This document shows, piece by piece, positions 11,299-33,879 of a DNA stretch of 35,984 bases. The notes under the pieces are model-generated. The model made no database searches, was not told where the DNA came from, and saw only the letters and a list, made by a program, of their open reading frames with translations. Position 1 is the stretch's first letter. The number at the start of each line of letters is the position of its first letter. The position numbers and the translations under genes were made by a program. The DNA is from Nitrospirota bacterium (lineage in GTDB: Bacteria > Nitrospirota > Thermodesulfovibrionia > Thermodesulfovibrionales > SM23-35), in NCBI GenBank assembly GCA_014859105.1, contig JACUUX010000005.1, forward strand, positions 65,759-101,742, given 5' to 3'.

Positions 11299-12669
11299 TT
11301 ACTCGTCCCCGATAATATAGACTCTGTTCCTGCCTTTATCTTTTGCAACATACAATGCATTATCAGCCCTTTTTATAAAACTGTTAATGTCTTCTTTACC
11401 TGCATCGAATTCAGCTACTCCAATGCTTACTGTTGTTTTAATAGATTTATTCTTGTTGAGTTTTAAATTAAAATCCTTGATGATAAAACGAATTCGCTCT
11501 GCTATCTCCTTCGCCCCTTCCATGGACGTCTCAGGGAGGATGAGGAAAAACTCGTCTCCTCCGTACCTTCCGATTATGTCGGTATTTCTTAAAGAACTCT
11601 TAATCAGGGAGGAAATAATCTGTAAGGCTTTGTCTCCGATATCATGACCGTATGTATCGTTTATTTCCTTAAAATAATCAATATCACAAATAATGAGGGC
11701 AAGTTGGGACCTGTATCTTTTAGCTCTGTTAACCTCTTCCTCCAATTTTTCAAGAATAGCTCTTCTGTTTAATAGACCTGTAAGGTCATCGATTCGTAAA
11801 AGATATTGAAGTCTGTCCACCAGAATATCCCTTTCTGCCTCTGCTTTTTTACGTTTTGTAATGTCCCTTGTATATTCGATAACCCCTGTTATTTTTCCAT
11901 TTTCATCAATTATCGGATATGTAAATATCTCTATCCATGTATTTAAGCCTGCTGGCAGTATTAAAAGCTTTTCTTTAGTGAAAGGTTTACCCGAATCAAA
12001 AGTTTCTCTTACAGAACAATCTTCACAAATTGTGTTCCTGTTATATAAAACTTCATAACAGCGTTTTCCTATTATTTCATAAACTCTCTTTCCCCTCATC
12101 CGGGCATACGACTCATTGGCTCTTTTAATTCTGTAATCACTGCCTACAATATTAAAAGGGTCGTTAATACTTTCGAATACCATGTTGAGAAATCTTTCTG
12201 AATCCCGCAATTCGACCTCTCCCTTTTTACGCTCCGTGATATCAACAGCAATCTCCATGCGCACATATCTTCCATCAGGCCATTGTATAGCTTTATCTAT
12301 ACAATGATACCAGCGTCCGGTTTTTGTGTTTCTGAAATCCCAGATAACCGGTGGTCCGGGCTTGCCTTCAATAATTAGACGATCATTTGTACAGTAAGAA
12401 CACGGGCCATCCTGTAATTCCTGAAAAATTTTATAACACTTTTTACCAAGAATATTATTTCCATAATGTTTTTTAATATATTTATTGACACGTAAAATTC
12501 TGTAACTCTTCATATCAGAAACATAGACAGCGCCTTCAAGCCCGTCCAGTATTGCAAACATTTCATCTACTATCTCTTGAGCAGCCTCTATTTCGAGATT
12601 CTTAATTCTTTGCTGTAAGTTCTTTTGATATAATTGCAAATCCTCTCCGGCTTGCTTATATTCAACCAT
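11299..12669 (-). CDS. PAS-PAS-GGDEF diguanylate cyclase
   Basis: 456-residue soluble protein. A short coiled coil (1-35) is followed by PAS1 (about 40-146), PAS2 (about 160-272) and a GGDEF domain (about 290-454) with intact GGDEF at 370-374 and an RxxD inhibitory site R361-N-T-D364 five residues upstream, so it should make c-di-GMP under product inhibition. Each PAS domain carries a cysteine set: C78...C90-x2-C93 and C204...C215-x2-C218, of the KxCY...CxxC type, which could sense redox state or bind a metal (inference). No membrane segment. The start ATG is 20 bases after the 8-haem cytochrome gene stop, so it is probably the last gene of the cytochrome operon. Its output may act on the MshEN protein at 3.3 kb. 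Confidence 0.9.
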   Translation of the reverse strand: MVEYKQAGEDLQLYQKNLQQRIKNLEIEAAQEIVDEMFAILDGLEGAVYVSDMKSYRILRVNKYIKKHYGNNILGKKCYKIFQELQDGPCSYCTNDRLIIEGKPGPPVIWDFRNTKTGRWYHCIDKAIQWPDGRYVRMEIAVDITERKKGEVELRDSERFLNMVFESINDPFNIVGSDYRIKRANESYARMRGKRVYEIIGKRCYEVLYNRNTICEDCSVRETFDSGKPFTKEKLLILPAGLNTWIEIFTYPIIDENGKITGVIEYTRDITKRKKAEAERDILVDRLQYLLRIDDLTGLLNRRAILEKLEEEVNRAKRYRSQLALIICDIDYFKEINDTYGHDIGDKALQIISSLIKSSLRNTDIIGRYGGDEFFLILPETSMEGAKEIAERIRFIIKDFNLKLNKNKSIKTTVSIGVAEFDAGKEDINSFIKRADNALYVAKDKGRNRVYIIGDE

Positions 12670-12689
12670 AATTCAATCCCTCATTTTTA

Positions 12690-14099
12690 TTAAAACGTCC
12701 GCCTGTTGGTCCTGCGTCCATCAGGTGCAGCGTTATCATCCGAGCCATGAAAATGACAACAATTGCAATTAATAGGATTCCTCGAGACAGTTTCACAGCT
12801 CATGCTTTCACCACCACCTCCTCCTCCATCACCACCACTATGGCAAAAGCCGCATTGATTTAACGGATAAGGTCTATCAGTACTTTCATGGTGAATATAG
12901 CACCATTTATTGGCAGTTCCACCAAATGCATCAGCATCATCCATATGGCATCTATTGCAGAGATATCCCAATTCCTTACTGCCCGCAGGAAATGGTGGAG
13001 TGCAATCCCCTGCCGTTGGTGTAACTGAAGATATGGTTCTGTAAAGTACTCCGCCATTAACCACTTGTCTTATCAACATTACATTTGGTGCCCCATGAGG
13101 CTCGTGGCAGTCGGTACAGGCAAGGACAAACCCGACACTTATGCCGAGCGGTGATGATGCATAAGGATTATCTATATCAATGCCGTTGGTGGCGTCGTTT
13201 TTCCCATGTTTGTCACCGCCCGTTTCACCACCGGGAGTAACCCAATCAATTGCTCTTAGATATCTTCCAAGAGCTGTGCTGTATATAATATTTGTGTTAT
13301 TGTGACAATCAGTACAGAAAGTATTGTAATCAGGAAGATTTGATCCGTCATATACAGGCGAGTTATTAGGCTCATAATTCCATGACCCGTACCAGTATGG
13401 TGACTGATAATATGAAGTAAAATTAGTTTTTAACCTCTCAATGTCATCATCTCCCCATAGACTGTCATGACCGGTGGGCCTTGATATGGCAGATTTAGTC
13501 GGGTCATAAGATCCGGCCGGCTTGCCACAGCTTTTTTTTGCAATATGGACATTATGGCAACCGGAACACGGGTTACTGTCAGCAGGAAAATTTGGGAACG
13601 ACTTACTGCCGGAAAGGCCGGCAATAAACCTGTATACATCATACAGGTTATGATAGGATGTGCTGTTGAATGTATTGAAGATATTATTGGGAGTAGCATC
13701 GGGATTCCCTCCAAATGTGATACTGTAACTGTAATTATTAAAAGCCGGGCTTTGAAGGGTACCGGATCCATAATGGCAATAAAAACAGACTGAGTCACTC
13801 TGAATATAAGGTATTACAGTTTTTCCGCTGAAATTAGGAGACATAAGCAGAAATTTATCAGGGCCACCTGCAGGGTCTGGCTCTGCCCCTCCAATACTTG
13901 CATGCTGTTCATGGCAGTGTGCGCAATTTCCTTTTGCATAATCTGCAGGAAATCCTGTAGCGCTTCGTTTGACCCCATATGAGGTATTGCCATGCGCGGA
14001 ATCGAGATAAGGCCCGCTGCTTGCCCTGTCGGGATACAAAATCCAGCATAAAACCATCCCGCACAGCAAGATGGATATTAGGATTATGTTCCTTCTCAT
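12690..14099 (-). CDS. Exported octahaem c-type cytochrome
   Basis: 469 residues with an N-terminal signal sequence (RRNIILISILLCGMVLCWIL) and eight CXXCH motifs: CAHCH, CFYCH, CSGCH, two CTDCH, CNRCH, CGFCH and CNCCH. There is also a CYIHH that lacks the second Cys. The C-terminal region has a glycine run (GGDGGGGGG) followed by a last CNCCH and a basic tail. I recognise no named family. ATG 14099 is chosen because AAAGGAG lies nine bases upstream; a TTG at 14105 is too close to it. Upstream is a TTACCG-type repeat and the OmcS-like gene at 14276; downstream is the diguanylate cyclase. Likely periplasmic or surface electron carrier. Confidence 0.85.
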   Translation of the reverse strand: MRRNIILISILLCGMVLCWILYPDRASSGPYLDSAHGNTSYGVKRSATGFPADYAKGNCAHCHEQHASIGGAEPDPAGGPDKFLLMSPNFSGKTVIPYIQSDSVCFYCHYGSGTLQSPAFNNYSYSITFGGNPDATPNNIFNTFNSTSYHNLYDVYRFIAGLSGSKSFPNFPADSNPCSGCHNVHIAKKSCGKPAGSYDPTKSAISRPTGHDSLWGDDDIERLKTNFTSYYQSPYWYGSWNYEPNNSPVYDGSNLPDYNTFCTDCHNNTNIIYSTALGRYLRAIDWVTPGGETGGDKHGKNDATNGIDIDNPYASSPLGISVGFVLACTDCHEPHGAPNVMLIRQVVNGGVLYRTISSVTPTAGDCTPPFPAGSKELGYLCNRCHMDDADAFGGTANKWCYIHHESTDRPYPLNQCGFCHSGGDGGGGGGESMSCETVSRNPINCNCCHFHGSDDNAAPDGRRTNRRTF

Positions 14100-14120
14100 A
14101 GTCAATCACTCCTTTAAAAT

Positions 14121-14280
14121 CGTCTCACGGTAACGGCTACGAGGCCCGTTTCGTTCAACGGTCACGTGTATCGGCTTTTCTACGTAACCGATATACGTAA
14201 CCGATACGGGCTTCTTTGCCGTGACCGTAGCCGAACTTTCCGATACGGGCCTCGTTACCGTTACCTTAACCGTTTTTAAT
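14121..14280 (-). repeat. TTACCG-word element, copy A (with duplicated right half)
   Basis: Contains the family marks GGCCCGTTTCG on the left and two copies of CGATACGGGC on the right, 39 bases apart. On the minus strand it is open in one frame (KPVSVTYIGYVEKP...), giving a 63-residue reading frame from 14297 to 14106 that starts inside the preceding gene and stops at the Shine-Dalgarno of the following one. Confidence 0.8.
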
Positions 14281-15388
14281 TCTTGCTCGTATGGCATACA
14301 TTACACCCATTTGTCGCGCCACTTCCTGGCCAGCCCCTGTAATCCCACCTCATCATCTTAAAGTAAGGAGATGCATGTGCCCTGTGGCACGAAAGGCACA
14401 TGACCATGTCTCCATGTGTACCCGATACCATACTGCTTGGGCCACCCTCCCAGTCAAAGCTGCTGGGCCTGGCTACCGGTACCAGCGGATCATATGTGGT
14501 ATAAGCAGCATATTCCCCTGAAGTCGGCAATATCTTATCCGATGGATGTCTAAGCCAGGGGCTTGCAGTTCCCTGGTTATCATGAAATACTCCATGGCAA
14601 CCAGTACAATAGGCAGTCATTGTATTGCCAAGGCCCCCAAAACCATAGCCGCCAGATACTTGAGAACCCAGGTACTCATTATGGTCGGTTGAACTATAGG
14701 TATACTGCCAGTCGTCATCTTCAATCCCTGCAACTCCGTGGCCAGAACCACTCATATGCCCTTCAAGAAAACGATACCAGCCTTTCTCTGCGGTATCTAC
14801 GTATTTTGTACCTGTCCCATCATCTTTATGGTGAAAACCTTTAGGCCCAACAGTGTTTACCATGTGACACTTGGTACAACCTTGCTTTCCGTCGAGGGCA
14901 GGGTTTCCCGTACCGGAAACAGCGAGGTGAAAGTTAGTATGACAATTATTAGTACCACAACCGCTAAAACCCATATCCCCGGGTGCAACGCTAAGTTTGC
15001 TATCTTGAGAAAATATATTATGGCCTTTTGTATCTTCTGTTTGTACCCAATAGAAATTGCCTGCAGCCAGTCCTTTTGCTTCATTAAATACAGGCTCAGA
15101 AGTGTTGAAGACAATAGGAGCTCCGGTGATAGAACTCTTCCATGTAGATCCATCAGTAGCCGTATGGCATCCTAAACATGTCCCGCGAAGGAGTGCCCCC
15201 TTTGGCCCTATGTCTTCTTCTCCCGGAGCCAGATATTGCATATGCGCTCCTTGCTGGCTATTGTGCATAGTATGACAATTACTGCATGGACCGGTAACCT
15301 TAGCATCAGCGATTCCATATGTTAAGACGACAGTCAATAGAGCAACGAGACTTATTATTATTATTGTCTTTCTCACCTTACTGGTCAT
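14276..15388 (-). CDS. OmcS-like multihaem cytochrome (6 CXXCH + 1 CX4CH)
   Basis: 370 residues, signal peptide ending GIADA|KVTG. Haem motifs: CSNCH, CLGCH, CGTNNCH (CX4CH), CTKCH, CTGCH, CLSCH, CNVCH. The pattern CSNCHTMHNSQ near the N-terminus, AAGNFYWV...KGHNI, DDDWQ...DHNEY, CHGVFH, SPWLRHPSD and a C-terminal CLSCHRAHASPYFKMMRWDY recurs in the genes at 29429, 31018 and 32803 and resembles OmcS, the hexahaem nanowire cytochrome of Geobacter. It has one extra haem motif (CTKCH) compared with its paralogues. The start codon at 15388 lies in a TGAC heptamer repeat without a Shine-Dalgarno; GTG 15376 is an alternative. It follows the 16-haem gene after 50 bases of repeat. Confidence 0.85.
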   Translation of the reverse strand: MTSKVRKTIIIISLVALLTVVLTYGIADAKVTGPCSNCHTMHNSQQGAHMQYLAPGEEDIGPKGALLRGTCLGCHTATDGSTWKSSITGAPIVFNTSEPVFNEAKGLAAGNFYWVQTEDTKGHNIFSQDSKLSVAPGDMGFSGCGTNNCHTNFHLAVSGTGNPALDGKQGCTKCHMVNTVGPKGFHHKDDGTGTKYVDTAEKGWYRFLEGHMSGSGHGVAGIEDDDWQYTYSSTDHNEYLGSQVSGGYGFGGLGNTMTAYCTGCHGVFHDNQGTASPWLRHPSDKILPTSGEYAAYTTYDPLVPVARPSSFDWEGGPSSMVSGTHGDMVMCLSCHRAHASPYFKMMRWDYRGWPGSGATNGCNVCHTSKN

Positions 15389-15440
15389 CAGTCATTGGTC
15401 AATGGTCATTAACTTAGACATTGGTCATTGACCAGTGACT
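15381..15440. repeat. Heptanucleotide TGAC/GTCA tract
   Basis: Units such as GGTCATT and CAGTCATTGGTCAATG. It fills the whole gap between the 16-haem gene and the next cytochrome gene and contains the latter's start codon. Confidence 0.7.
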
Positions 15441-16779
15441 ACTTCTTATGACACTGGATACAAAGCTGCCTCTTTCTGTCAAAATAGAGCATAAAACCTG
15501 CCCTGGCCGAATGCATGCTATGACATGTCTTACAGGTAACTGGCTTGCCATTTCTGGGATCTCTTACATCTGGACCGAGTGGATGGGTAACCCTATGCTG
15601 GGCTTCATGACATTGTGCACACGTCATAATCTCATCTTCTCTGAAATATAGCTTATCCAGAGAATGCGGTGGAATATGACATTCAAAACATTTTCTCTCC
15701 TTCACAGGAACACATCTAATAGATCTTAATGCTCTTTCCATAAGAACAGTTCTTTTTTCGGTATCCTCGTGGCATCTTATGCAGGTTTGAGACTCTTTAA
15801 CTGTCAAATCCGTCTTCTTCGAAGCATGGTAATTATGGCATATAATACAGCCGCCTTTTGATTCGTCTAAATGTACATCGTCGTCCCTGATAAATACAGG
15901 ATCTTTTTTGTGACAATCAAGGCATAGAGACTTACCCGACATCCTAATTGTAATCTTTTTATCAGGCAAAAATGGGTCATGGCACTTCTCGCACCTTTTA
16001 TCCAAAAAGTCTGAATGTCCATATGGGCCGAGTAACCCTTTTGTATTTGAAGCATGACCTCCGTGGCAGGACGTGCAATCCAGTTTATCTGTAGAATAAG
16101 TTATAGATACTCCTCCAGCTTTGCATCCCGGTGAATGGCATTTCTTACATAGTGTATTTGGTGAACTAATCATCTGGTCCTCGTTAGAAGATGCATGAGG
16201 ATTATGGCAGGATGAACACTCTCCATCCCTGAAAGGGATGTGGACATTTGTCTTTTTCAGTTGTTCTTTTAACGGTTCATGACAGCTCCAGCACAAATCC
16301 TTCTGTGCCTTCACCAGTAGGTTTTTATGCTCTCCGCTATGGCTATTATGGCAATCCGTACATGCACCCTGTTTGAGTGCACGATGTATAAAATCCTTTT
16401 TCAGTGCCTGTTTAATGCTCTCATGGCAGTTCATACACAGACTATTGATATTTTCCTTTATCAAACCTTTGATTTTTCCTGCATGAGAATCGTGACAGGA
16501 AGTGCATTTACCCTGGCTGAACGGAAAATGTACATATGCTTTTGAATGACTTTCCTCCAAATTTGTGTGACATTTGTAACATAAATCCGGGATTTTCTCT
16601 ATGAGATCGCCGCTCTGGGCATAAGCAAGACCACTAAAAGCCAAAACAACAAGTAGCATAGAGCAAAGAGCGTAGAGTATAGAGTATAGAGTAATAATCT
16701 CCCCTCGCCCCCCTTTATTAAAGGGGGGATGAAGGGGGGTTATCTTTTGCACTTCTATATTTGCTCTGGTTCTATTCAT
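15439..16779 (-). CDS. Exported 16-haem c-type cytochrome, doubled CXXCH type
   Basis: 446 residues with 16 CXXCH motifs, mostly in pairs of the doubled-CXXCH pattern (LCxxCH ... H.P...G.C.xCH..H) about every 40-50 residues: CYKCH, CTSCH, CMNCH, CTDCH, CWSCH, CSSCH, CKKCH, CTSCH, CEKCH, CLDCH, CIICH, CIRCH, CFECH, CAQCH, CKTCH, CIQCH. Probably a periplasmic electron conductor. The ATG at 16779 overlaps the end of the 26-haem gene by eight bases, so the two are translationally coupled. The N-terminus is odd: residues 11-30 come from a G-rich palindrome (HPPFNKGGRG) and the hydrophobic core (LYSILYALCSMLL) from a heptamer tract, with cleavage probably at GLAYA|QSG. Confidence 0.9.
   Translation of the reverse strand: MNRTRANIEVQKITPLHPPFNKGGRGEIITLYSILYALCSMLLVVLAFSGLAYAQSGDLIEKIPDLCYKCHTNLEESHSKAYVHFPFSQGKCTSCHDSHAGKIKGLIKENINSLCMNCHESIKQALKKDFIHRALKQGACTDCHNSHSGEHKNLLVKAQKDLCWSCHEPLKEQLKKTNVHIPFRDGECSSCHNPHASSNEDQMISSPNTLCKKCHSPGCKAGGVSITYSTDKLDCTSCHGGHASNTKGLLGPYGHSDFLDKRCEKCHDPFLPDKKITIRMSGKSLCLDCHKKDPVFIRDDDVHLDESKGGCIICHNYHASKKTDLTVKESQTCIRCHEDTEKRTVLMERALRSIRCVPVKERKCFECHIPPHSLDKLYFREDEIMTCAQCHEAQHRVTHPLGPDVRDPRNGKPVTCKTCHSMHSARAGFMLYFDRKRQLCIQCHKK
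16654..16745 (-). repeat. Heptamer tract plus G-rich palindrome coding for a signal peptide
   Basis: AGAGTAT/AGAGCAA-type seven-base units (16654-16697) followed by CCCCCCTTTATTAAAGGGGGG (about 16709-16729). Both lie inside the 5' end of the 16-haem cytochrome gene and are translated as its signal peptide. Confidence 0.8.
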
Positions 16780-18706
16780 GACATTCTATGCAGTCCCCTT
16801 TTGCAAAGGGAACGTGTTTAATCTTTCTTAACATTCCCGGCTTTTCTGTGACATGCGGTTCATGGCAGTTCAGGCACTTTTTAATTTTTATCACCGGCCT
16901 CAGGTGAATTTTTGAAAGCCTTTCATCACCTTTATGGCATTTAACACACAATTCTGGATCCCTGGCATTCTGCAAATAATTTAATTCAGAAAAATGTGGC
17001 AGGTGACAGCTCAAACAGTCTCCACTTTCCATGGTGATATGTCCTTTTCTTGCAGTTGTGGTAACAATCCTCTCATGGCAGGAAAGGCAAAGCTCTTTGG
17101 GCCTGTTGAAAAGTAAATGTTTGATCTTAGTCCCGTGAGGACTATGGCACGTTGTGCATTTTCCTTCTTCCACAGGCAGATGCCTGTTGTTAACCGAATT
17201 TACACCAGACTCCATATCCCTGTGACATCCATAACAGAGTTTTGGCATCGATATTATGGTAATTGCAGGATATTCACTCGCGTGAGGGCTATGGCAGGTT
17301 CTGCACGACTTTTCCTTAAATGGCTTGTGGACAACAGCATCCTCAAGCTGGAGAAACATGTCGCCGTGGCAGCTCACACAGAGCTGATCCGGCGGATTGT
17401 TTAACAATTTCTTATAAAGGGAAGCATGAGGTTTATGGCAGGAAATACATTTTCTGTTGTTTACAGGATTATGAATATATGTTTTAAAGAATTCCTTTTT
17501 TTCTTTTCCGTGGCACGAATAGCATAGATCAGTAACCGGTATTTTCAGCATGGAAATATTGTTGCTGCCGTGAGAATCATGACAATTTTTACAATCTATC
17601 CCTGCAAATGGCATGTGTGTATATTTCTGTTTTAATTCTTCTTCAGTCTTTCCATGACATGTGAAGCAGATCTGTTTTTCTGGTGCCTTTAAGTAAAATC
17701 TGTCCTGAGAGGCATGCGGGTCATGGCATGCCGTACAGCCCCTGTCCTTTATCGGCATGTGCAATCTGCTCATTTTCAGCAGATCTTCCTTTTTCTTATG
17801 GCAGTTCAGACAGAGATAGTTCTTATCCATAAGTGTGACCTTAGCGTAATCTGTTGCATGCGGGCTATGGCAATTCTGGCACCTTCCTTCATCTGCCGGG
17901 CGGTGTCTATGTAACTTTTTGAATTCTTTCTCTTCTTTTTCGTGACATGTATAGCATAGTTTGCCATCAGTGGCAATGACATTAAGTGGTTCCGGGTCAT
18001 TTGCAGGCCTGTGGCACGAACTGCATTGACCGAGATCTAACGGTGCATGAACTGCCTCCCTCAGCAATTTCTCATTTGTTGAGCTGTGCGGAGTATGACA
18101 ACCTGAACATCTGCCATTCTGAACAGGATATCCCTTATGTGAATCTTTAAATCTCTTTTCTCCAAAGTTATGGCATGACTGACAGAGTTCTGTCTCAGGT
18201 TTTATAAGATTATCTCCGTTTTGAGACCCATGTGCTGAATGACATACATGACACCCGTCGCTTAATGGCTTGTGCTGTTTATGGCGTGTAAATAGAGCCT
18301 GATTATGGCATGTAAAGCATTGCTCATTCCCGATCTTTCTCTGAAGGAATTCATTATCAGAGGCATGAGGATTATGACAGGGGAGACATTTACCCTGTTT
18401 TAATGCGGTGTGAACATAAGTTGTTTTTTCGATATTTTCTGACATTTGAGCATGACAGAGAAAACACAATTTCCTTTCTTCTCTTTCCTTAAGCGACAAT
18501 ACAGCGATCTTACCGTGGCGCAAATGACAGGACTCGCAATCCTTTTTTGACATGGGTGAATGGACATATCTTTTCTGAAACTCATCTAATTTATCTTTAT
18601 GGCAGTCTAAACAGGGCTTTGCAACAAAACCCCTTCTTACTGATGTCTCAGGAGCACAGGTAAAAAGGAAGCTGAAAATGACAAGAATGAGAATGAGTTT
18701 TAACAA
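16772..18706 (-). CDS. Exported 26-haem c-type cytochrome, doubled CXXCH repeats
   Basis: 644 residues with 26 CXXCH motifs in about 13 tandem pairs (typical unit: LCxxCH, some 20 residues, H.P...G.C.xCH.PHAS). One haem per 25 residues suggests a long haem wire in the periplasm or across the envelope. Hydrophobic N-terminus LKLILILVIFSFLFTC; a lipoprotein cysteine there is possible but T before C is not a good lipobox. Start problem: the only canonical start is TTG 18706, which lies 24 bases from a perfect AGGAGGA. In-frame ATT codons at 18727 and 18721 lie nearer and would add a basic n-region (NIKVRN). The leader has its own promoter and a terminator-like hairpin. Geobacter omcS loci carry a comparably large cytochrome (from memory). 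Confidence 0.9.
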   Translation of the reverse strand: MLKLILILVIFSFLFTCAPETSVRRGFVAKPCLDCHKDKLDEFQKRYVHSPMSKKDCESCHLRHGKIAVLSLKEREERKLCFLCHAQMSENIEKTTYVHTALKQGKCLPCHNPHASDNEFLQRKIGNEQCFTCHNQALFTRHKQHKPLSDGCHVCHSAHGSQNGDNLIKPETELCQSCHNFGEKRFKDSHKGYPVQNGRCSGCHTPHSSTNEKLLREAVHAPLDLGQCSSCHRPANDPEPLNVIATDGKLCYTCHEKEEKEFKKLHRHRPADEGRCQNCHSPHATDYAKVTLMDKNYLCLNCHKKKEDLLKMSRLHMPIKDRGCTACHDPHASQDRFYLKAPEKQICFTCHGKTEEELKQKYTHMPFAGIDCKNCHDSHGSNNISMLKIPVTDLCYSCHGKEKKEFFKTYIHNPVNNRKCISCHKPHASLYKKLLNNPPDQLCVSCHGDMFLQLEDAVVHKPFKEKSCRTCHSPHASEYPAITIISMPKLCYGCHRDMESGVNSVNNRHLPVEEGKCTTCHSPHGTKIKHLLFNRPKELCLSCHERIVTTTARKGHITMESGDCLSCHLPHFSELNYLQNARDPELCVKCHKGDERLSKIHLRPVIKIKKCLNCHEPHVTEKPGMLRKIKHVPFAKGDCIECHE

Positions 18707-18875: not shown

Positions 18876-20348
18876 TTATCCCTGTAATTTTTCTTCAAGG
18901 GACTTAATTTCTTCGTTATAAATCTTTATCTCGGCCTCTTTCTTCAGCTCATTCACGTATTTTTCTAAAAGGCTATCCAATTTCTCATTAAAAAGGGCTC
19001 TTGAAACAGCATCTTTAACCTTATCAAATTCCTCAACCTCATCTTCTGTCCTTCCTGTCAGTTTTATAATCCTGTAAGAAGACTCAAGATCGATTACAGG
19101 GCTTATATCAGCAATCTTAAGGTCATCAATGCCTTCTCTGAACTGCAGGGGCAATTCTTTTTTTGTCACCCAACCAACGTCTCCACCCCTTGATGAAGCG
19201 GAATCAGAAGAGTATCTTTTTGCCAGCCACGAAAAATCTGCGCCGTCCCTGACGGAATTCAATATTTCCATAGCCTCATCCATTGTCTTTACAGTGATCT
19301 GCTGGATTCTATAAAGCCGGGGCTTCATAAAGTCTTTCTGATTGTTCAAATAATATTCATTAAGTGCCTCTTCTGTAATACTGATCTGTGGAATGATAAC
19401 TCTCTTTATAAAGGTATTCTTGAGAAGTTGATTCTCATATCGCCCTATCATTTTTTTGAAGTCAGGATCATTTTCGTAATGGCGGTTAACAGCTTCATGG
19501 TCTACCAATTTTCTCTCAATCCATGCATTGACAACATCTTCCTTCACATTAGCTTGTGAAGGTTTGAACATAGAAATGAAATCGATTGCTGTCAGAACCG
19601 AACCATTCACACTGGCCACTACCGTTTTATCGTTCGCCCATTTCCGTCTCTCTTCTTCAACGCCATTCGGGTCAATAGCCTCGAGGAGCTCCCTGTCAAT
19701 CTTTACATGGTATTTTTCACGAAGGTATTTCAGATACTCATCACTGCGGTCTTTTTCCTTCTGTTTCCTGATTTTCCTTTCGATTCTCCGTTTCACACGG
19801 TCAAATTCTTCAGTAGAAGCATAAATTTTCTTATAATGTTCTTTAATTTCTTCTTCTGTTACATCCACTTTTTTAACAATCTCTTCATCATGAAGCCTTA
19901 CAACAGATTCTCTGAGGATATAAGCCTGAACAGCCTGTTGAACCTCAGGATATTTATCCATGCCGGCATTGCGTGCCTCGTTGATAATCAATCTGTCATC
20001 TACCATTCTTTTTACATACCCTGATAAATCCAGCTTCCCTGCTGATGAAAGGTCTTCCCTCCGGTGGGATATTGTTAAGGCGTATTTAATGTCCCCTTCT
20101 GTAACAGGCTCACCATCAATAACTGCCAGAACCAACTCTTTCTCCCTTATCGAAGCACAACCACACAAAATAGTAAACAGTAGACAGTAGACAGTAAACA
20201 ACAAGAGACACGTCAGTCCGTTAAGGTGACAAGGCCCGTTTCGTCCTGACTGCTTCGTTATTCGGTTATGGTCATGATGCCCGTTTCGTCTATCGGCAAC
20301 GTCATTCGGCTTTCCTACGTAGCCGCTACACGTTACCGATACGGGCAT
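18876..20348 (-). CDS. PpiC-type peptidyl-prolyl isomerase, probable lipoprotein
   Basis: Exported foldase of the SurA/PrsA/parvulin type. After a lipobox-like LCGC (C64 in this reading) come helical chaperone regions that each begin with a VASVNG/LAVIDGEPVT-type start (about 72-160 and 242-340), and a rotamase domain (about 343-432: RIQQITVKT, GADFSWLAKRYSSDS, GGDVGWV). It probably assists folding of the barrel or cytochromes. The 5' end is unusual: residues 1-46 are encoded by a TTACCG-type element and the hydrophobic stretch (LLFTVYCLLFTIL) by a CTACTGT heptamer tract. ATG 20348 lies in the element; TTG 20204 would give a core with no basic residue. True start unresolved. Confidence 0.85.
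   Translation of the reverse strand: MPVSVTCSGYVGKPNDVADRRNGHHDHNRITKQSGRNGPCHLNGLTCLLLFTVYCLLFTILCGCASIREKELVLAVIDGEPVTEGDIKYALTISHRREDLSSAGKLDLSGYVKRMVDDRLIINEARNAGMDKYPEVQQAVQAYILRESVVRLHDEEIVKKVDVTEEEIKEHYKKIYASTEEFDRVKRRIERKIRKQKEKDRSDEYLKYLREKYHVKIDRELLEAIDPNGVEEERRKWANDKTVVASVNGSVLTAIDFISMFKPSQANVKEDVVNAWIERKLVDHEAVNRHYENDPDFKKMIGRYENQLLKNTFIKRVIIPQISITEEALNEYYLNNQKDFMKPRLYRIQQITVKTMDEAMEILNSVRDGADFSWLAKRYSSDSASSRGGDVGWVTKKELPLQFREGIDDLKIADISPVIDLESSYRIIKLTGRTEDEVEEFDKVKDAVSRALFNEKLDSLLEKYVNELKKEAEIKIYNEEIKSLEEKLQG
20167..20203 (-). repeat. CTACTGT/TTTACTG heptamer tract coding for a lipoprotein h-region
   Basis: Minus strand units TTTACTG, TCTACTG, TCTACTG, TTTACT, period seven, translated as the hydrophobic core of the PpiC-type protein's signal peptide. 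Confidence 0.75.
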
Positions 20349-21471: not shown

Positions 21472-21500
21472 AATTAAAACCACATCCTTAAGTCAATTTC

Positions 21501-22324: not shown

Positions 22325-22337
22325 ATGTTGACACCTC

Positions 22338-22971: not shown

Positions 22972-22989
22972 AAGCAAAATCACACAATT

Positions 22990-23050
22990 TGTCATTCCCG
23001 CTTGTCGGGAATCTTTCTTTAATAAGGATTGCGGACAAGCCGCAATGACA
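22990..23050. repeat. Dispersed TGTCATTCC...CAATGACA palindrome
   Basis: TGTCATTCCCGCTTGTCGGG on the left, GCGGACAAGCCGCAATGACA on the right; 61 bases, a compact copy of the family. Confidence 0.8.
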
Positions 23051-23091
23051 GGAAAGAAATGGGCATATGGCCTTACTTTTGGTCTTATTAG

Positions 23092-23155
23092 TAACGTTAA
23101 TTGGCTACGGTTAAGATGCCCGTTTCGTCTCACTGTCATATTGCTTGGCTCCTTA
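23092..23155 (-). repeat. TTACCG-word element, copy C (left part only)
   Basis: GGCTACGGTTAAGATGCCC then GTTTCGTC matches the left half of the other copies; the right half is missing. It lies beside a TGTCATT palindrome and a heptamer tract in the 294-bp gap upstream of the lipoprotein genes, which holds no other recognisable feature. Confidence 0.7.
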
Positions 23156-25832: not shown

Positions 25833-26004
25833 TAATACAAACGAATTTAATAAATTAACATTGTCCACCCTCCCCTTTATCCCCTCCCATCAAGGGAGGG
25901 GAAACACACCCCTATACCCCTCTCAAGAGGGGAAGTCCCCTATCCCCTTGTGGGAGAGGGTTAGGGTCAGGGGGTAGATAAACTTACTTAATGCGTTTGT
26001 ATTA
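25833..26004. repeat. TIR-bounded segment with G-rich palindromes (MITE-like)
   Basis: TAATACAAACGAATTTAATAAA at 25833 is matched by the reverse complement TAATACAAACGCATTAAGTAA ending at 26004. Between them are C-rich/G-rich palindromes (CCCCTCCCATCAAGGGAGGGG, CCCCTCTCAAGAGGGG, CCCCTTGTGGGAGAGGG). The propeller gene's stop codon lies in the right end. No transposase reading frame is inside. Confidence 0.55.
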
Positions 26005-27660
26005 AAAAGGAAACATAGCTATCCCGTATGGCCTTTTGCCGACAGGAATAACTTTCTCCTGCCTCTTTGTGGTTTTATCAACCACTGACACAGTATTTGA
26101 ACCTCTGTTGACCACATATATCTTTCTGCCTTCAGGGTCAAGAATTAAGGACCTCGGGGATTTTCCCACAGGTATAGTATCTATTATAGGAGCCATTGCC
26201 ATTGCAGTCCTTAAAGGAGTAAAAGCCTCTGCAAATAATCTTACAATCATAATTTCGCCGGTAAGCTCCTTTAATAGATAAAGCCTGTCGAGGTCAGGGT
26301 CGGCAACAACTCCTGTAACAGAAGTCCCGGTATTTGTAATGGTGCTGACCGCACCGTTTATATTCCCTCTGATTATCTGAAGGATATCTATTACAGAAAT
26401 ATTGTCAGAGCTATAGTTCGCCACATAAACCTTACCTCTCTGGTAGTCTACTGAAATGGCAACAGGATTCCATTCAACTTTTAAATTAATTACCTCGTCC
26501 GGCCTGTTTGAAATCCTGTCCATTTTGATCACAGAAACATCCCTTGAATTCTTATTTGCCACATAAATATTGAAAAATTTTTCACGATAGCTTCTGAGGA
26601 GGTTAACATCTTCGAAGCTGAGAAACCTGGTGACAGAAAGGCTGTCAGCTGACGGGTCTGCAGCCACTGCTACAGGCCCGCTTCCGACGCTTATCTTTTC
26701 GACCTCCTGATAAGTCGCGGCGTCAAAAACAGAGATATTATCAGAACCATAATTCGCTACAAAAATAAGCTCTTTTTCAGAAGATATTCTTGCTACTGCT
26801 ATCCCCTCCGGTTCCCTGCCGAACCTTACCGGAATCTCAATCTCGACCTCGTTAACAGTAGAGTCAATCACAGAAATGCTGTTAGAGCCCGAATTTACCG
26901 CATAAACCCTTGGATATTCCCTCAGAGAACTTGCAGCGATTCCCCTTGGTTTTTTGCCTGCCATGATTGTTGCAGCAATATCCCCTGTTTGCCTGTTAAT
27001 TACAGAAACATTGTTCGACTCTTCATTTGTCACATAAATAAGTAAAGAACTGAGTTCGGGTATCTTTTCTCTGATAGAAAATACAGGACTGAAAAGATAA
27101 CCATCCACAATAGAGGCATCAGCATCCCAGGTTAAAAATAATGTCGTGTTATGATTTCTTATTATTGAAATATCAATACTGACCTCAATTCCTTCAGGTG
27201 GCAGTGCCATGTTTGCTGTCCTGTCTTCCCTCTTAATTGTTGCCTGTTTGACAATAAACTGCAGGCCTTTATATCGTCCTTCAGGCAGGTACCGCTCACT
27301 CAAAAGTATCTGCTTGCCGGTGATGGAAACAGATTTAATAGTTACCGGGCTGTCCATTATCTCTCTGGCGATACCATCTTCTGTTACAATATTAACCGCC
27401 GAGAGTATAAAAGTCATATCTATTGAAGTTTTTTCGTGACCTTTGAGGAATACGGTAAGCTGGCCATGAGATACATCCTGCGGCTCTACGTACTCTTTAA
27501 ACGAAGCACAACCCACCCCAAAAAATAGCAAATAGCATAGAGCTAAGAGCAATAAACGGCTACGGTTACGATGCCCGTTTCGTCTGACGGCTACGTCCTT
27601 CGGCTTTTCCACGTTACCGAACCACGTTACCGATACGGGCTTCGTTACCATTACCTTCAC
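26002..27660 (-). CDS. YVTN-type beta-propeller lipoprotein with N-terminal DUF4382-like domain
   Basis: 552 residues. The lipobox is FGVGC (C51 in this reading). Residues about 60-200 (GQLTVFLKGHEK...LPEGRYKGLQFIVKQATI) resemble DUF4382-type domains of surface lipoproteins. From about 208 on, repeats of the form IYVTNEESNNVSVINRQTG, VYAVNSGSNSISVID, IFVANYGSDNISVFD, VYVANYSSDNISVID, IYVVNRGSNTVSVVD form a YVTN propeller of about seven blades. The GTG at 27660 overlaps the upstream stop and has AAGGA seven bases before it. The n-region (RRNGHRNRSR) is encoded by a TTACCG element and the core (LLLLALCYLLFF) by heptamers. Propellers of this sort often sit next to surface cytochromes; the partner is not known. 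Confidence 0.82.
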   Translation of the reverse strand: MKVMVTKPVSVTWFGNVEKPKDVAVRRNGHRNRSRLLLLALCYLLFFGVGCASFKEYVEPQDVSHGQLTVFLKGHEKTSIDMTFILSAVNIVTEDGIAREIMDSPVTIKSVSITGKQILLSERYLPEGRYKGLQFIVKQATIKREDRTANMALPPEGIEVSIDISIIRNHNTTLFLTWDADASIVDGYLFSPVFSIREKIPELSSLLIYVTNEESNNVSVINRQTGDIAATIMAGKKPRGIAASSLREYPRVYAVNSGSNSISVIDSTVNEVEIEIPVRFGREPEGIAVARISSEKELIFVANYGSDNISVFDAATYQEVEKISVGSGPVAVAADPSADSLSVTRFLSFEDVNLLRSYREKFFNIYVANKNSRDVSVIKMDRISNRPDEVINLKVEWNPVAISVDYQRGKVYVANYSSDNISVIDILQIIRGNINGAVSTITNTGTSVTGVVADPDLDRLYLLKELTGEIMIVRLFAEAFTPLRTAMAMAPIIDTIPVGKSPRSLILDPEGRKIYVVNRGSNTVSVVDKTTKRQEKVIPVGKRPYGIAMFPF

Positions 27661-28068: not shown

Positions 28069-28228
28069 CATTCGGTTACGGTTACGATGCCTGTTTCGTC
28101 TTGATTACTTCGTCATTCGGTTACGGCAACGAAGCCCGTTTCGTTTATCGGTTACGTTGTTCGTCTTCTCTGTAACCGTTACCGTTTGCCGTTACCGAAA
28201 CGGGTCTCGTTACCGTTACCGTTTTTAT
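28069..28228 (-). repeat. TTACCG-word element, copy F
   Basis: Left units GATGCCTGTTTCG and GAAGCCCGTTTCG 45 bases apart, right unit CGAAACGGGTCTCG. Unlike copies B, D and E it has lost two bases in the middle and has stop codons in the frame that is open elsewhere; it is not joined to a gene. It fills the gap between the NHL gene and the four-helix gene. Confidence 0.8.
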
Positions 28229-29175
28229 TTTTGCTCCTCTCCGGGTAGAAAAACCTGTATTCTATCATTAAATGTATCGGCGACAAGAATCCTGCCTTCC
28301 CTGTCAACAGCTATGTCCTTTGGATACTGAAACCACCCTTCCCCCCATCCAAGTCCGCCGAATTCTGTCAGGTATTTACCATCTTTGTCATAAACAGAGA
28401 TTGTATGACGCATGTAATCAACAACATACATCTTTCCGGTTCTACTATCCACACCAACTGCCTGCGGGCGGCTCAACTTTCCGGTGCTGCCACCTTTTTC
28501 GCCGAATTTAAAAAGGAATTTCCTGTTCTCATCATATACATAAATGTGGCTTTGCTCCTCGCTTACAAGATATATTTTCCCTTCTTTATCCAGAGTTACA
28601 TAATTCAAATTAGCTCTTCCGTCCCCCTCATCAGGTGAAATTACTTCAATAAGCTTCCCCTCGTCATTCAGCACCAGAACACCCGGATAATGATAGCTCG
28701 CCACATAAATATTTCCTTTTTTGTCCAAAGCAAGGCGGTAAGGGACAAATGAATCAGCCCCTTCAAATCCCTGTAAGTAAATATCCTTTGTCCATTTAAG
28801 GCATGCATTATAGACCGAGATCCTGTGTCCTGGATTGTCTTTTGTCCCGGCCTGGGCAACATAAAGATTGCCTTCCGCGTCAATATTTAATCCCTGAGGC
28901 ATAAAAACCCCATCTGATTTACCGAGAGTGAAAACCGGAAAAAAATCTGACGTATATATGATGACCCTGTTCTTGCTGTCAATAACATAAATTTCGTTCA
29001 TTACAAATTCTGAAAACACAAAAGAAGGGAATGATATTTTTTCTCCTTCTTCATCTTCAATAATGCTATCAATATATTTTGAAGGGGGGGTCTGCAGCTG
29101 GGCTTTCAATGTATAAGGTATTACTATTAAAAGTAATCCAAAAATTATGAAACTGATGAGTCTTATCGATTTCAT
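28225..29175 (-). CDS. Exported NHL-repeat (six-bladed beta-propeller) protein
   Basis: 316 residues from ATG 29175: signal peptide (KSIRLISFIIFGLLLIVIPYTLKA|QLQ), then NHL blades such as MPQGLNIDAEGNLYVAQAG, VPYRLALDKKGNIYVASYH, LNYVTLDKEGKIYLVSEEQ, RPQAVGVDSRTGKMYVVDY and YPKDIAVDREGRILVADTFNDRIQVF. Such propellers are frequent neighbours of surface multihaem cytochromes, including the omcS locus of Geobacter (from memory), and may act as scaffold. Upstream readings from 29229 add residues without a signal. No strong Shine-Dalgarno. It lies downstream of a terminator, so it needs a promoter in 29176-29372, which I could not place with confidence. Confidence 0.85.
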   Translation of the reverse strand: MKSIRLISFIIFGLLLIVIPYTLKAQLQTPPSKYIDSIIEDEEGEKISFPSFVFSEFVMNEIYVIDSKNRVIIYTSDFFPVFTLGKSDGVFMPQGLNIDAEGNLYVAQAGTKDNPGHRISVYNACLKWTKDIYLQGFEGADSFVPYRLALDKKGNIYVASYHYPGVLVLNDEGKLIEVISPDEGDGRANLNYVTLDKEGKIYLVSEEQSHIYVYDENRKFLFKFGEKGGSTGKLSRPQAVGVDSRTGKMYVVDYMRHTISVYDKDGKYLTEFGGLGWGEGWFQYPKDIAVDREGRILVADTFNDRIQVFLPGEEQK

Positions 29176-29235
29176 TTTTAAATTTTCTGTAATAAGTAAT
29201 AGACCATAAGTAAGGTCACATTTCTGCAACTATCT

Positions 29236-29428: not shown

Positions 29429-30556
29429 TTAATCCTTCGTTGTATGGCATCTGAAGCATCCTGTACCGTCTGCGCCACCGCCACCGGCCAGCATTGTGCT
29501 GTAATCCCATCTAAGGATATCATCATGAGGGCTTCCATGCGCCCTGTGGCATGAGAGGCATATGACCGGGCTGTCGCCCGCTGTAACTATTTGACGTGGA
29601 CTAGCAGGTATATTTACATATCCAACAGGGGCTTCAAGACTATATGTGCCAGCAGCGACTACATCATTGTAATTTGCATATTCGCCACCTTTGCCCATAA
29701 CATCAGTATCTGTGGGATGCCTTGTCCATGGGCTTGACGGAGGGGTCTGATCACTTATTTCAGAGTGGAAATAACCATGGCACTGACTGCATAAATAGCT
29801 GATGGTTTTAGTATCGGTCTGAGTTATTGCCCCTTTATACTCATTGTGGTCATCGACAGCAGCACTTTGTTGCCAGTCATCATCTTCAAGACCTAAAACA
29901 CTATAGGTAGATAGAGCACTGCTGCCTAAGAATCTAAAACTTGCTGCTACAGTTGAACCGTCTATCGTTGAATCATCTCCATGATGTGCTCCTTTAATAG
30001 CAACAAAACTGGCGGAAAAACCATCAGTATAAGTAGACCGGTCAACATTTCGATTTCCGTGGCAGCCGTTAGAGCCTGCACAGGTTAACATATAGGAATC
30101 GGACCATCTAACAGTAGAGGGATCACGGGCAGTTTCATAGCCAGGGGGATTGTTTTCCAGGAACGCATCTTGATTATACATGCCATCAATATTATGCCCT
30201 CTTGAGTCAGCGATAGATACATAGAAAAAATTACCCCCTGCAAGGTTATAATTAGCTCCACTCCATGACTGAGCAGTCCCGGGGTCAGTTGTACCGCCTC
30301 CTGTATTCCAGACTACGGGGATACCACCTGTCTTAATAGTAGCGGTGCCTGTATTACTATGGCAACCCATACAACTGCCTAACAGAAGAACCGGCCATGG
30401 TCCATCAGGTTCAGCACCTGCAGGTACTTCTCCATTCTGGCTGTAATGCATTGTATGGCAATTGGAACACTGACCAGTCACTGCTGCAAAGGCAAAACCG
30501 GCTGTAAGGACAAGAGAAAGAGCAACTATAAGACCCGAAATTAATCTTTTCTTCAT
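29429..30556 (-). CDS. OmcS-like cytochrome (5 CXXCH + 1 CX5CH), best candidate nanowire subunit
   Basis: 375 residues; signal peptide ends FAFAA|VTGQ. Haem motifs: CSNCH (TMHYSQNG), CMGCH, CAGSNGCH (CX5CH, GNRN), CSQCH (GYFH), CLSCH (RAHGSP), CFRCH (TTKD). The order and flanking words match OmcS: CxxCHTMH at the N-terminus, AGGNFFYV...RGHNI, SFRFLG, RHP, CLSCHRAH.S and a last CxxCH close to the C-terminus. OmcS has a CXXCH at the third position where this protein has CX5CH. It has the full set for strong separate expression: TTGACA-type promoter, AAGGAGGTGA six bases before the ATG, and a perfect terminator. Filament formation is inference. Confidence 0.85.
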   Translation of the reverse strand: MKKRLISGLIVALSLVLTAGFAFAAVTGQCSNCHTMHYSQNGEVPAGAEPDGPWPVLLLGSCMGCHSNTGTATIKTGGIPVVWNTGGGTTDPGTAQSWSGANYNLAGGNFFYVSIADSRGHNIDGMYNQDAFLENNPPGYETARDPSTVRWSDSYMLTCAGSNGCHGNRNVDRSTYTDGFSASFVAIKGAHHGDDSTIDGSTVAASFRFLGSSALSTYSVLGLEDDDWQQSAAVDDHNEYKGAITQTDTKTISYLCSQCHGYFHSEISDQTPPSSPWTRHPTDTDVMGKGGEYANYNDVVAAGTYSLEAPVGYVNIPASPRQIVTAGDSPVICLSCHRAHGSPHDDILRWDYSTMLAGGGGADGTGCFRCHTTKD

Positions 30557-31017: not shown

Positions 31018-32157
31018 CTATTGACCTTTTTTTGTATGGCACGTGAGGCAACCCTTACCAGATGTAACTTTACGGGTATCCATTTCCGAGTGACCCTGTC
31101 TCAGCGTACCGGGAAACGGACTTGCGTGTGCTCTATGATCCGAATAATCCCATCTCAGCATACTGGGAAACGGACTTGCGTGCGCTCTATGACATGAGAG
31201 GCACATGACTATACTTGTAGAGTCGACAATGACCTCATTGCCCTTCGGTTCGGTAAAGGCAACAGGTGCCTCAAGGCTATAAGTGATATACCCCTGATAT
31301 TCAGAGTCTGCAAATCCTCCCTTCACGCTATCAAATGCTATATCAGTCGGATGTCTGTACCAGAGTGAGTTATACACCTGGCCGACTTCTGCTCTTCCGC
31401 CAAGATTCGGATGGGGATGGAATTTAGCATGGCATCCACCGCATAAATAACTTATCGTATCCATGGTATCATGGCTGATATTGCCCTTATATCCATTATG
31501 ATTATCAATAGTGGCAAGATATTCCCAGTCCTCGTGTTCTTTCCCTGTTATTCCGTAAAGGAAACGATAGCTTCTGCCGACTGTATAGCCATCAATTTCG
31601 CTGTCATCACTATGGTGAGCCCCGTGCATGGATTTATAAGGGTCTTCTACTGTCCTGTTTCCATGACATCCCCATGTACCTGAACATGTCAGTTGTTGCA
31701 CTGACGGCCAGTATGAAGGACCCGTACCGCCGGTGATTGGAACAGCCTGTATAAAACCGGGGGGCACATCCATGGGTGGATTCTGTCTGATAGAAATGTC
31801 CAGCACATTATGACCTTTTGTATAATCAGGGGTAAAGCCATCCGCAACATAATAATAATTTCCGCCGGCAAGGTCAGCGCTCTTCATGTTATGAAGCACC
31901 TGAGGTACTTTTGCCTTTCCCATAGATATAATATTCTGTATTCCGTTAGGCTCCTGGCCGTGGCAGCCGACACATCCACCCTTTGTCAATACAGGAAATG
32001 GCCCCTGACGGTCTCCATAAGTAACCTCTTGACCTTCATGACTATAATGCATGCTGTGGCAATCCTTGCATTTTCCTTTGACTCTGGCGTCCGACATACC
32101 AAAGGCTATGAAAACAGATAATAGAATTATAAAACTTATGATCAGGTTCTTTTTCAT
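31018..32157 (-). CDS. OmcS-like cytochrome (5 CXXCH + 1 CX5CH) with a C-terminal tandem duplication
   Basis: 379 residues from ATG 32157. Signal peptide KKNLIISFIILLSVFIAFGMSDA|RVKG. Haem motifs: CKDCH (SMHYSHEG), CVGCH, CSGTWGCH (CX5CH), CGGCH, CLSCH (RAHASPF), CLTCH. It shares AGGNYYYV, KGHN, GAHHSDD, DWEY...DNHNGYKG, RHPTD and LEAPV with its paralogues. After CLSCH the segment HRAHASPFPSMLRWDYSD is followed directly by a near-copy, HRAHASPFPGTLRQGHSEMD, from a 54-bp DNA duplication. The start ATG overlaps the DUF559 stop (ATGA). A longer reading to 32217 only translates a G-rich palindrome and is not needed. Confidence 0.87.
   Translation of the reverse strand: MKKNLIISFIILLSVFIAFGMSDARVKGKCKDCHSMHYSHEGQEVTYGDRQGPFPVLTKGGCVGCHGQEPNGIQNIISMGKAKVPQVLHNMKSADLAGGNYYYVADGFTPDYTKGHNVLDISIRQNPPMDVPPGFIQAVPITGGTGPSYWPSVQQLTCSGTWGCHGNRTVEDPYKSMHGAHHSDDSEIDGYTVGRSYRFLYGITGKEHEDWEYLATIDNHNGYKGNISHDTMDTISYLCGGCHAKFHPHPNLGGRAEVGQVYNSLWYRHPTDIAFDSVKGGFADSEYQGYITYSLEAPVAFTEPKGNEVIVDSTSIVMCLSCHRAHASPFPSMLRWDYSDHRAHASPFPGTLRQGHSEMDTRKVTSGKGCLTCHTKKGQ
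31085..31192 (-). repeat. 54-bp in-frame tandem duplication within the 31018 cytochrome
   Basis: GGGAAACGGACTTGCGTG at 31111 recurs at 31165, with similar flanks on both sides (CTCAGC, GCTCTATGA). Exact period 54 bases, 18 residues; only a few mismatches, so it is recent. Confidence 0.9.
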
Positions 32158-32531
32158 TTCAAGGGGGTAAATTCCCCTCCCTTGACGGGAGGGGTCAGGG
32201 GAGGGCGAGATAAACAATTTTCTCTTATCTTTTCTAACACCCCTCCTATATTTTTAAAAACATCGTTATTCCAGAACCTTAAAACTTTAAAACCATGTTT
32301 TTTAAAATAATTATCTCTTTCAATGTCCTTTTCTTTATCTGCCGCATGCTGTCCACCGTCAACCTCTATGATTATTTTTTTATCGAAACATACAAAGTCT
32401 ACTACGTAATTATCAATTGGCTGTTGTCTTCTGAATTTAAATCCATCTATTTGCTTTGACCTCAAATATCTCCACAGCAACTTTTCTGTTTCTGTAGGTC
32501 TTTTTCTGAGGAGTCTGGCTATATTGTTCAA
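32154..32531 (-). CDS. DUF559 (Vsr-like PD-(D/E)XK) protein
   Basis: 125 residues: ARLLRKRPTETEKLLWRYLR, FKFRRQQPIDNYVVDFVCFDKKIIIEVDGGQH, RDNYFKKHGFKVLRFWNNDVFKN. This is the short DUF559 family related to very-short-patch endonucleases, with the D...E-x-D core (VDFVCFDKKIIIEVD). Function in DNA processing is presumed only. The last 15 or so residues (PPLTPPVKGGEFTPLK) come from a G-rich palindrome. The TTG start at 32531 has TAAGGA directly adjacent, too close to be ideal, and an in-frame stop just upstream. It interrupts the run of cytochrome genes and is probably a passenger. Confidence 0.85.
   Translation of the reverse strand: MNNIARLLRKRPTETEKLLWRYLRSKQIDGFKFRRQQPIDNYVVDFVCFDKKIIIEVDGGQHAADKEKDIERDNYFKKHGFKVLRFWNNDVFKNIGGVLEKIRENCLSRPPLTPPVKGGEFTPLK
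32158..32205. repeat. G-rich palindrome
   Basis: AAGGGGGTAAATTCCCC, then CCCTCCCTTGACGGGAGGGG; codes for the tail of the DUF559 protein and lies directly before the 31018 cytochrome start. Confidence 0.75.
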
Positions 32532-32800: not shown

Positions 32801-32802
32801 CT

Positions 32803-33879
32803 TCATTTCCCTGTATGACATATTAAACATCCGCCTTTACCTTCTTCGTGAGCGTAAATGTTGTCATAATCCCATCTCAGTATAGATTCATATGGACTTG
32901 AATGCGCAATATGGCATGAAATGCAGATGACCATATCTTCACCTAATTTGACCTCTTCACCCGGTGCTTTCAGAACCTTCTGCCTTCCAACAGGTGCATC
33001 AGGATTATAAATCCTTACACCGGGCATTCCATCAGGCGGGGAAATATCCGGATTATACCTTGCATACTCACCGGTTTCGGGCAGCACAATACCTACCGGA
33101 TGCCTGAACCACGGGCTTTTCTTTCCATCTTTATCTCTCAGGTGGAATTTACCATGACAGCTTGCGCAGAGAACATCAATTGAAGGCGAATACTCATTAT
33201 GTTTATCCGAGGTACTGTTTCTTCCCCAGTCGGCATCCTCAAATCCAACGACACCTTTTATCTCGTCTGTATTTTTCAAAAATCTATAACTCCTGGCCGT
33301 TGTAGTCCCGTCTACAGGTTTATCGACAGCGTGATGGGCGCCTTTTATTGCATCATAGGGGTTCTTAATATTTCTATTGCCATGGCAGCCGTTAGAACCT
33401 GCGCAATTAAGCGGTTTTTCTGTGTTATACCCCGGTATGGAAGGATCAAAATCTCTGTAATAACCTGGAGGTGCTCCTTTGAATTTTGAATCCATCGATG
33501 CAATGCCATCCACATTATGGCCCTTCCGGTCACCTGAAAATTCTGCTACATAAAAGAAGTTCCCGCCAGCTAAGGGATTTTCAGGCTTTACTTCATTGAA
33601 AACCACAGGTACCCTGCTTCTTCCAATGATTTTTACGGTATCTTTGCCGTCGCTCGAATGGCAATTTATACAGAGAACATTTGTCGAAACAAGCTCACCG
33701 TGCAGAGTCTCATCTAATAGCCCGGGGAAGAGCTTATGACATGCATCACAATCTCCTGATACTGTAGCCAGCGTATTTTCTGAAAAATAGAAAGTGAAAA
33801 ATGTATATGACACAACTATAATAATTATGCTATTAATCCTCAAATATCTTAAAAGTTGTTTAAGATTTTTTTTTGTCAT
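32803..33879 (-). CDS. OmcS-like cytochrome (5 CXXCH + 1 CX5CH), first gene of the cluster
   Basis: 358 residues. Hydrophobic N-terminus INSIIIIVVSYTFFTFYF, probably a signal peptide cleaved after about residue 38. Haem motifs CDACH, CINCH, CAGSNGCH (CX5CH), CASCH, CISCH, CLICH. Shared words: AGGNFFYV, KGHNVDG, GNRNIKNPYDAIKGAHH, SYRFL, DADW...DKHNEY, CHGKFH, SPWFRHPVG, CHIAHSSPYESILRWDY. It is the most diverged of the four at its N-terminal haem (CHKLFPG instead of CHTMHYS). The ATG at 33879 lies in the arm of a TGTCATT palindrome (AATGACA) with no Shine-Dalgarno. A candidate promoter is at 34043-34071. Confidence 0.85.
   Translation of the reverse strand: MTKKNLKQLLRYLRINSIIIIVVSYTFFTFYFSENTLATVSGDCDACHKLFPGLLDETLHGELVSTNVLCINCHSSDGKDTVKIIGRSRVPVVFNEVKPENPLAGGNFFYVAEFSGDRKGHNVDGIASMDSKFKGAPPGYYRDFDPSIPGYNTEKPLNCAGSNGCHGNRNIKNPYDAIKGAHHAVDKPVDGTTTARSYRFLKNTDEIKGVVGFEDADWGRNSTSDKHNEYSPSIDVLCASCHGKFHLRDKDGKKSPWFRHPVGIVLPETGEYARYNPDISPPDGMPGVRIYNPDAPVGRQKVLKAPGEEVKLGEDMVICISCHIAHSSPYESILRWDYDNIYAHEEGKGGCLICHTGK

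Follow-up and report, generated by a model that had tools for sequence, protein, structure and literature searches.

The window analysed here, a stretch of 35,984 nucleotides from a Nitrospirota bacterium (contig JACUUX010000005.1), carries between positions 11299 and 33879 a minus-strand gene cluster that is very probably a lineage variant of the osc cluster, the omcS companion genes that assemble OmcS nanowires in Geobacter. The system is of a known kind and is well conserved, here in a divergent variant, and its value lies in the relationship of its CsgG-like proteins to PelC and in a suggested division of labour among its four OmcS-family cytochromes, OmcSa, OmcSb, OmcSc and OmcSd (Table 1). 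The osc cluster of Geobacter sulfurreducens (GSU2504-GSU2493) is described by Shen et al. (2025), cited here through PMC13194489 and PMC12977616.

Based on a scan for OmcS, 76 named loci were obtained, and counts were redone on untiled open reading frames (ORFs); longest-ORF tiling had dropped some genes in GC-rich loci. Profiles built only from proteins of the window type recovered the series NHL, OmcS, YVTN, barrel, CsgG2, CsgG1, PpiC, 26-haem and 16-haem beside canonical OmcS genes in Nitrospirota, Acidobacteria, Rokubacteria, Geobacterales and others. In these canonical clusters, the hidden Markov model E-values ranged from 2e-13 to 1e-54 for the barrel, reached 8e-67 (YVTN), 1e-61 (CsgG1) and 1e-68 (PpiC), and were about 1e-40 for CsgG2; the 26- and 16-haem genes were also matched. 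Matching gene order beside true OmcS was found in, for example, L057, L059, L084, L089 and L111. Additionally, in L044, a locus from the same order as the window, the homologous barrel, two lipoproteins, the isomerase and the propellers adjoin a protein matching OmcS (6EF8) at 2e-89. The claim of an earlier note that this is an omcS-type locus outside Geobacter was thereby borne out for the phylum Nitrospirota, from whose class Thermodesulfovibrionia OmcS genes had previously been reported (PMC8478452). Canonical osc clusters, each including three OmcS genes, are also present in two metagenome-assembled genomes labelled Nitrospira (L091 and L096).

The Geobacter operon is described in PMC13194489 as omcS, omcT and oscC (GSU2501), followed by genes for OscD (morphology), OscE, OscF and OscG (secretion) and OscH (folding), with oscI corresponding to GSU2495 and oscJ to GSU2494. 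PMC12977616 assigns 26 haems to GSU2495 and terms GSU2500-2493 a 'nanowire secretion' block. The window shares with G. sulfurreducens the OmcS-family hexahaem cytochromes, a propeller, the barrel, two PelC-like proteins, the prolyl isomerase and the 26- and 16-haem cytochromes, in the same order. Unlike the Geobacter-type cluster, which has one to three OmcS-family genes, the window has four divergent paralogues whose third haem motif is CX4/5CH and of which one lacks the equivalent of His16, together with a third PelC-like lipoprotein, an NHL gene after the cytochromes, and OmcSd and an octahaem cytochrome downstream.

A full-length barrel gene was present in 13 more genomes belonging to the same family or order, with contig-end fragments in G009 and a weak match (3e-10) in G035. 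Across 13 loci (L031-L043), the order of two to three OmcS-like genes, NHL, YVTN, barrel, CsgG3, CsgG2, CsgG1, PpiC, 26-haem, 16-haem, OmcS-like and octahaem genes was held as far as the contigs extend, with local exceptions such as L042 and the short contig L040. In L131 and L133, from the same class, the core of this order was largely kept. Among 198 Nitrospirota genomes, the barrel was present in 16, window-type OmcS-like cytochromes in 14 and both in 12, so that the cytochromes occurred in 12 of the 16 barrel genomes versus 2 of the 182 others (Fisher p 3e-14, uncorrected for kinship among genomes). The cytochrome threshold in this count was strict, and canonical OmcS genes near four barrels were left uncounted. 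Barrel and cytochromes thus co-occur elsewhere, which supports the earlier note on this point. Seven OmcS-like cytochromes were seen without a detected barrel in L121 (G165), where the contig ends near the cytochromes, and a fifth OmcS-like cytochrome of the window's own genome lies on contig C82 (L123, 5318-6466) with no osc genes around it.

Translation of the cluster gave a total of 71 CXXCH motifs in seven multihaem cytochrome genes on one strand (8, 6, 16, 26, 5, 5 and 5), the number originally proposed, compared with a mean of 1.2 and a maximum of 5 in six frames of first-order shuffles of the same 22.6 kb. Each small cytochrome has one further C-X4-CH or C-X5-CH motif; with these counted, the haem-site candidates number 75 and the 6-7 sites previously given for each small cytochrome are correct. 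The four small cytochromes are about 40% identical to each other, with the expanded motif at the third haem position, as in most window-type members. A profile of 32 window-type members matched OmcS (6EF8) at 3e-21 over most of its length, and the second-best solved chain was NrfA (9e-4). Chance rows such as XIAP and LHCII among the profile matches to the Protein Data Bank (PDB), for the OmcS-like and the CsgG2/CsgG3 profiles, were discarded.

Several points weigh against this assignment. A single-sequence phmmer search of the PDB with OmcSc did not recover OmcS, so the link is visible by profile only. In the tree, the window-type cytochromes form a clade on a long branch (100/100) outside canonical OmcS, and they do not belong to the OmcS-proper clade (six CXXCH). 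The osc letters were assigned to the genes of the window from gene order and reported roles rather than from a comparison with a G. sulfurreducens locus, and should be taken as provisional. For the barrel model, PapC, LptD and MtrB were tied (Z 14-15, rmsd 7-8 Å), leaving no clear nearest relative. Moreover, PMC12977616 warns that OmcS relatives cannot be presumed to form wires, and it is disputed whether Geobacter needs OmcS filaments to respire (PMC11077965; PMC13194489).

Within the window-type clade, OmcSa (three rows) and OmcSb (six rows) formed orthologous groups across families, each at 100/100, OmcSd grouped within one family (98/93), and the OmcSc rows were scattered. OmcSc is also the fastest changing of the three upstream paralogues. 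The ligand shared between OmcS subunits is presumably His16, the second histidine of the first motif, CHTMH. In the OmcS filament, one of the twelve haem ligands, on haem 5, is supplied by the neighbouring subunit (PMC6584659). The equivalent histidine was kept in OmcSb, OmcSc and OmcSd of all loci examined and in 65 of 69 canonical OmcS-family proteins. In all ten OmcSa orthologues, it is replaced by Phe, Tyr or Val (motif CHxL[FYV]P), and because the capping histidine is missing throughout this group, OmcSa is predicted to be a terminal subunit. The four canonical proteins without the histidine are all from Geobacterales (L082, 9968-11278; L109, 3384-4754; L114, 7489-8808; L115, 9896-11293) and are a possible parallel to OmcSa.

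The CsgG-like proteins had been regarded as an addition to the pathway. Two of them are instead core osc parts everywhere, and only the third is specific to the variant: 33 canonical clusters have two PelC-like genes separating the barrel gene from the isomerase gene, and 14 of 14 window-type clusters have three; three further canonical clusters were split. The nearest solved relative of these proteins is PelC, not CsgG. The CsgG2/CsgG3 profile matched PelC at 1e-9 and PelBC at 9e-9, with CsgG at about E 1, and the lipobox cysteine is invariant in the CsgG2/CsgG3 alignment; CsgG1 has no lipobox. CsgG1 (OscG-like), the one CsgG-like protein folded as a model (predicted local distance difference test, pLDDT, 83), contains two superfamily domains. 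The first matched GNA1162 (Z 14.1) and the second a subunit of the PelC dodecamer (Z 15.1, 124 residues, 2.2 Å), followed for the model by FlgT of the flagellar outer ring (Z 14.0). An interpretation as CsgG channels was dropped in view of the PelC matches of the profile and the model. The curli channel CsgG shares the superfamily fold of its periplasmic domain with these proteins, which differ from it in that 200 aa seem hardly enough to accommodate its transmembrane hairpins, and in the presence of a separate barrel.

In PelBC, which exports polysaccharide, the PelC lipoprotein assembles into a dodecameric ring beneath the PelB barrel, facing the periplasm; the isolated ring has a 3.2 nm pore (PMC12141448). 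With PelC as the nearest solved relative, the window proteins can be read, by analogy, as rings under the barrel. The window resembles PelBC of Pseudomonas aeruginosa in combining an outer-membrane barrel with PelC-fold lipoproteins. It differs in its proposed cargo, the cytochromes, in having two or three different PelC-like proteins, one of them with tandem domains, in showing no TPR domain, and in its strand number (some 28-30 long strands by visual count on the model's secondary structure, versus 16 in PelB).

The barrel model (pLDDT 86; predicted template modelling score 0.61) contains an inserted sandwich at about residues 272-421, which is weakly similar to sugar-binding F5/8C domains (one member, E 0.002). 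This similarity, together with the polysaccharide cargo of PelBC, would fit a system in which the OmcS-like cytochromes are mere neighbours and the barrel and PelC-like proteins export another cargo, such as the octahaem protein or a polysaccharide. We regard this as highly improbable: the block has no glycosyltransferase or other polysaccharide gene, and each of the 11 genomes in the sample that have a window-type barrel also has OmcS-like cytochromes.

A reading as a porin-cytochrome conduit, a kind of system cited in the earlier note, holds at most in part. Here an MtrB-like barrel would be threaded by an MtrA-like 26-haem protein, and electrons would cross the outer membrane to monomeric surface cytochromes without a filament. 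The 26-haem protein matched the DmsE decahaem family at 4e-85, and the best solved match of its profile was chain A of 6R2Q, the Mtr complex (8e-25, a score of a kind that doubled-CXXCH repeats inflate). We take this chain to be MtrA, since the molecule is evidently misnamed in the search output. MtrB gave the top TM-scores (0.37/0.42) for the barrel among the top 50 Foldseek rows, at Z 14.2, but it was tied with PapC and LptD, the barrel profile matched no barrel among solved structures in the PDB, and the Pfam scan returned no family for it. Furthermore, the barrel, lipoproteins and isomerase accompany true OmcS genes across phyla, and the homologous osc barrel is linked to secretion, OscE, OscF and OscG being reported as secretion proteins in PMC13194489. 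The window is like MtrCAB in its large barrel and in a multihaem cytochrome possibly related to MtrA, and unlike it in having 26 haems rather than 10 and in its PelC-like lipoproteins and isomerase. Among the proteins scanned, nothing scored above the cut-off for the MtrC/OmcA family. A conduit without a filament is therefore improbable, if somewhat less so than another cargo; one complex might also serve as conduit at one time and as exporter at another.

The complete outward electron pathway claimed for the locus is unproven, because no inner-membrane quinol oxidoreductase or other link to the quinone pool was found in the locus and no NapC/NrfH-type protein above the family cut-off in the genome. 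The genome encodes a trihaem c7-like protein. The direction of electron flow cannot be read from sequence.

Taken as an osc variant, the anatomy fits a machine for folding, exporting and wiring up OmcS-like subunits. Homology, gene order, lipoprotein signals, folds and co-occurrence were computed; we infer the rings, the passage of folded cytochromes, the polymerisation, the place of OmcSa and the electron route. The lipobox cysteine is kept in most members of the YVTN, CsgG2, CsgG3, PpiC and 26-haem proteins, placing them at a membrane. The OscH-like prolyl isomerase lipoprotein would help the OmcS-family cytochromes to fold in the periplasm, and these would leave through the large OscE-like barrel, at whose periplasmic mouth the OscF- and OscG-like proteins and the third PelC-like protein may be arranged in a single ring or several, in the manner of PelC beneath PelB. 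Outside the cell, the subunits would link end to end, three of the four paralogues capping haem 5 of a neighbouring subunit with the kept histidine and OmcSa, which lacks it, lying at the haem-1 end. The propellers may act on the filament at the cell surface, and the lipid-anchored 26-haem protein and the 16-haem protein might connect the base of the filament electrically with carriers in the periplasm. A more detailed version, which we hold only tentatively and think unlikely as a whole, is a hetero-polymeric wire with OmcSa ending the haem-1 side, OmcSb as a conserved adaptor and OmcSc as a fast-changing shaft, exported in a PelBC-like manner with rings of up to three lipoproteins.

Table 1. 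Features of the cytochrome cluster in the window; osc counterparts are assigned provisionally
Feature	Coordinates	Strand	Remarks
OmcSa, OmcS-family hexahaem cytochrome	32803..33879	-	5 CXXCH + CX5CH; CDACHKLFP, His16-equivalent missing
OmcSb, OmcS-family hexahaem cytochrome	31018..32217	-	5 CXXCH + one CX4CH/CX5CH
OmcSc, OmcS-family hexahaem cytochrome	29429..30556	-	5 CXXCH + one CX4CH/CX5CH
NHL propeller protein, signal peptide	28225..29229	-	48-72% identity across 13 syntenic loci
YVTN propeller lipoprotein, OscD counterpart	26002..27660	-	N-terminus of reading frame repeat-derived
Outer-membrane barrel, OscE counterpart	23266..25545	-	about 28-30 strands + inserted beta-sandwich (model)
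CsgG3, third PelC-like lipoprotein	22411..23139	-	confined to window-type variant
CsgG2, PelC-like lipoprotein, OscF counterpart	21746..22348	-	among the cluster's most conserved proteins
CsgG1, tandem PelC/GNA1162-like domains, OscG counterpart	20401..21483	-	
PpiC-type prolyl isomerase lipoprotein, OscH counterpart	18876..20348	-	
26-haem cytochrome lipoprotein, OscI (GSU2495) counterpart	16772..18706	-	26 CXXCH
16-haem cytochrome, OscJ (GSU2494) counterpart	15439..16779	-	16 CXXCH
OmcSd, OmcS-family cytochrome	14276..15388	-	6 CXXCH + CX4CH, one haem above OmcSa-c
Cyt8, octahaem cytochrome	12690..14105	-	8 CXXCH; cluster end in most window-type loci

By family matches and models, all the other components listed in the earlier note are present in the block: the barrel, the YVTN and NHL propellers, the PpiC protein, three proteins of the CsgG/LpoB/GNA1162 superfamily and a GGDEF protein. 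This last, the diguanylate cyclase, was not retained as part of the system: it adjoins the cluster in one related locus only (L035) and is outside the conserved set. Two further genes lie within the block. A 23S-IVP-type gene (27657-28058) has a counterpart of weak similarity in the corresponding position in L040 only, and a DUF559 gene (32154-32531) overlaps the annotated start of OmcSb, whose true start is probably near 32157 (MKKNLIIS...). The annotated barrel start is about 80 codons too far upstream: alignments with relatives begin at residue 74-98, and the surplus N-terminus derives from translation of an intergenic repeat. Units of this repeat family, containing CGTTACCGATACGGGC, fill gaps of the cluster at 14090-14282, 20224-20378, 25601-25812, 27518-27672, 28079-28237 and 30568-30724 and give the barrel, YVTN and PpiC frames spurious N-termini when translated. 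Comparable sequences also occur on other contigs and in relatives. Within the block from OmcSa to Cyt8, the gaps reach 461 bases.

Directly upstream of OmcSa lies a histidine kinase gene with a PAS domain (34113-35852); none was seen in related loci. On the plus strand (5094-7616), two adjoining genes resemble, by eye, ResB and CcsB/CcsA, which together form the system II cytochrome c synthase. The cluster with its expanded CX4/5CH haem motifs lies a few kb away. An Rfam scan of the window gave no match.

The export, anchoring and ending of cytochrome wires were called unresolved in a 2025 review (PMC12307469). In this context, the relationship to PelC offers a concrete architecture for OscF and OscG, and OmcSa, in which the capping histidine is missing, is a candidate for the end subunit and occurs in separate Nitrospirota families. 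The variant profile reaches OmcS relatives missed by single-sequence search, so surveys of the wire potential of subsurface Nitrospirota may be undercounts. Finally, the four genes resembling wire proteins suggest that some of these bacteria may build their wires from several different subunits.

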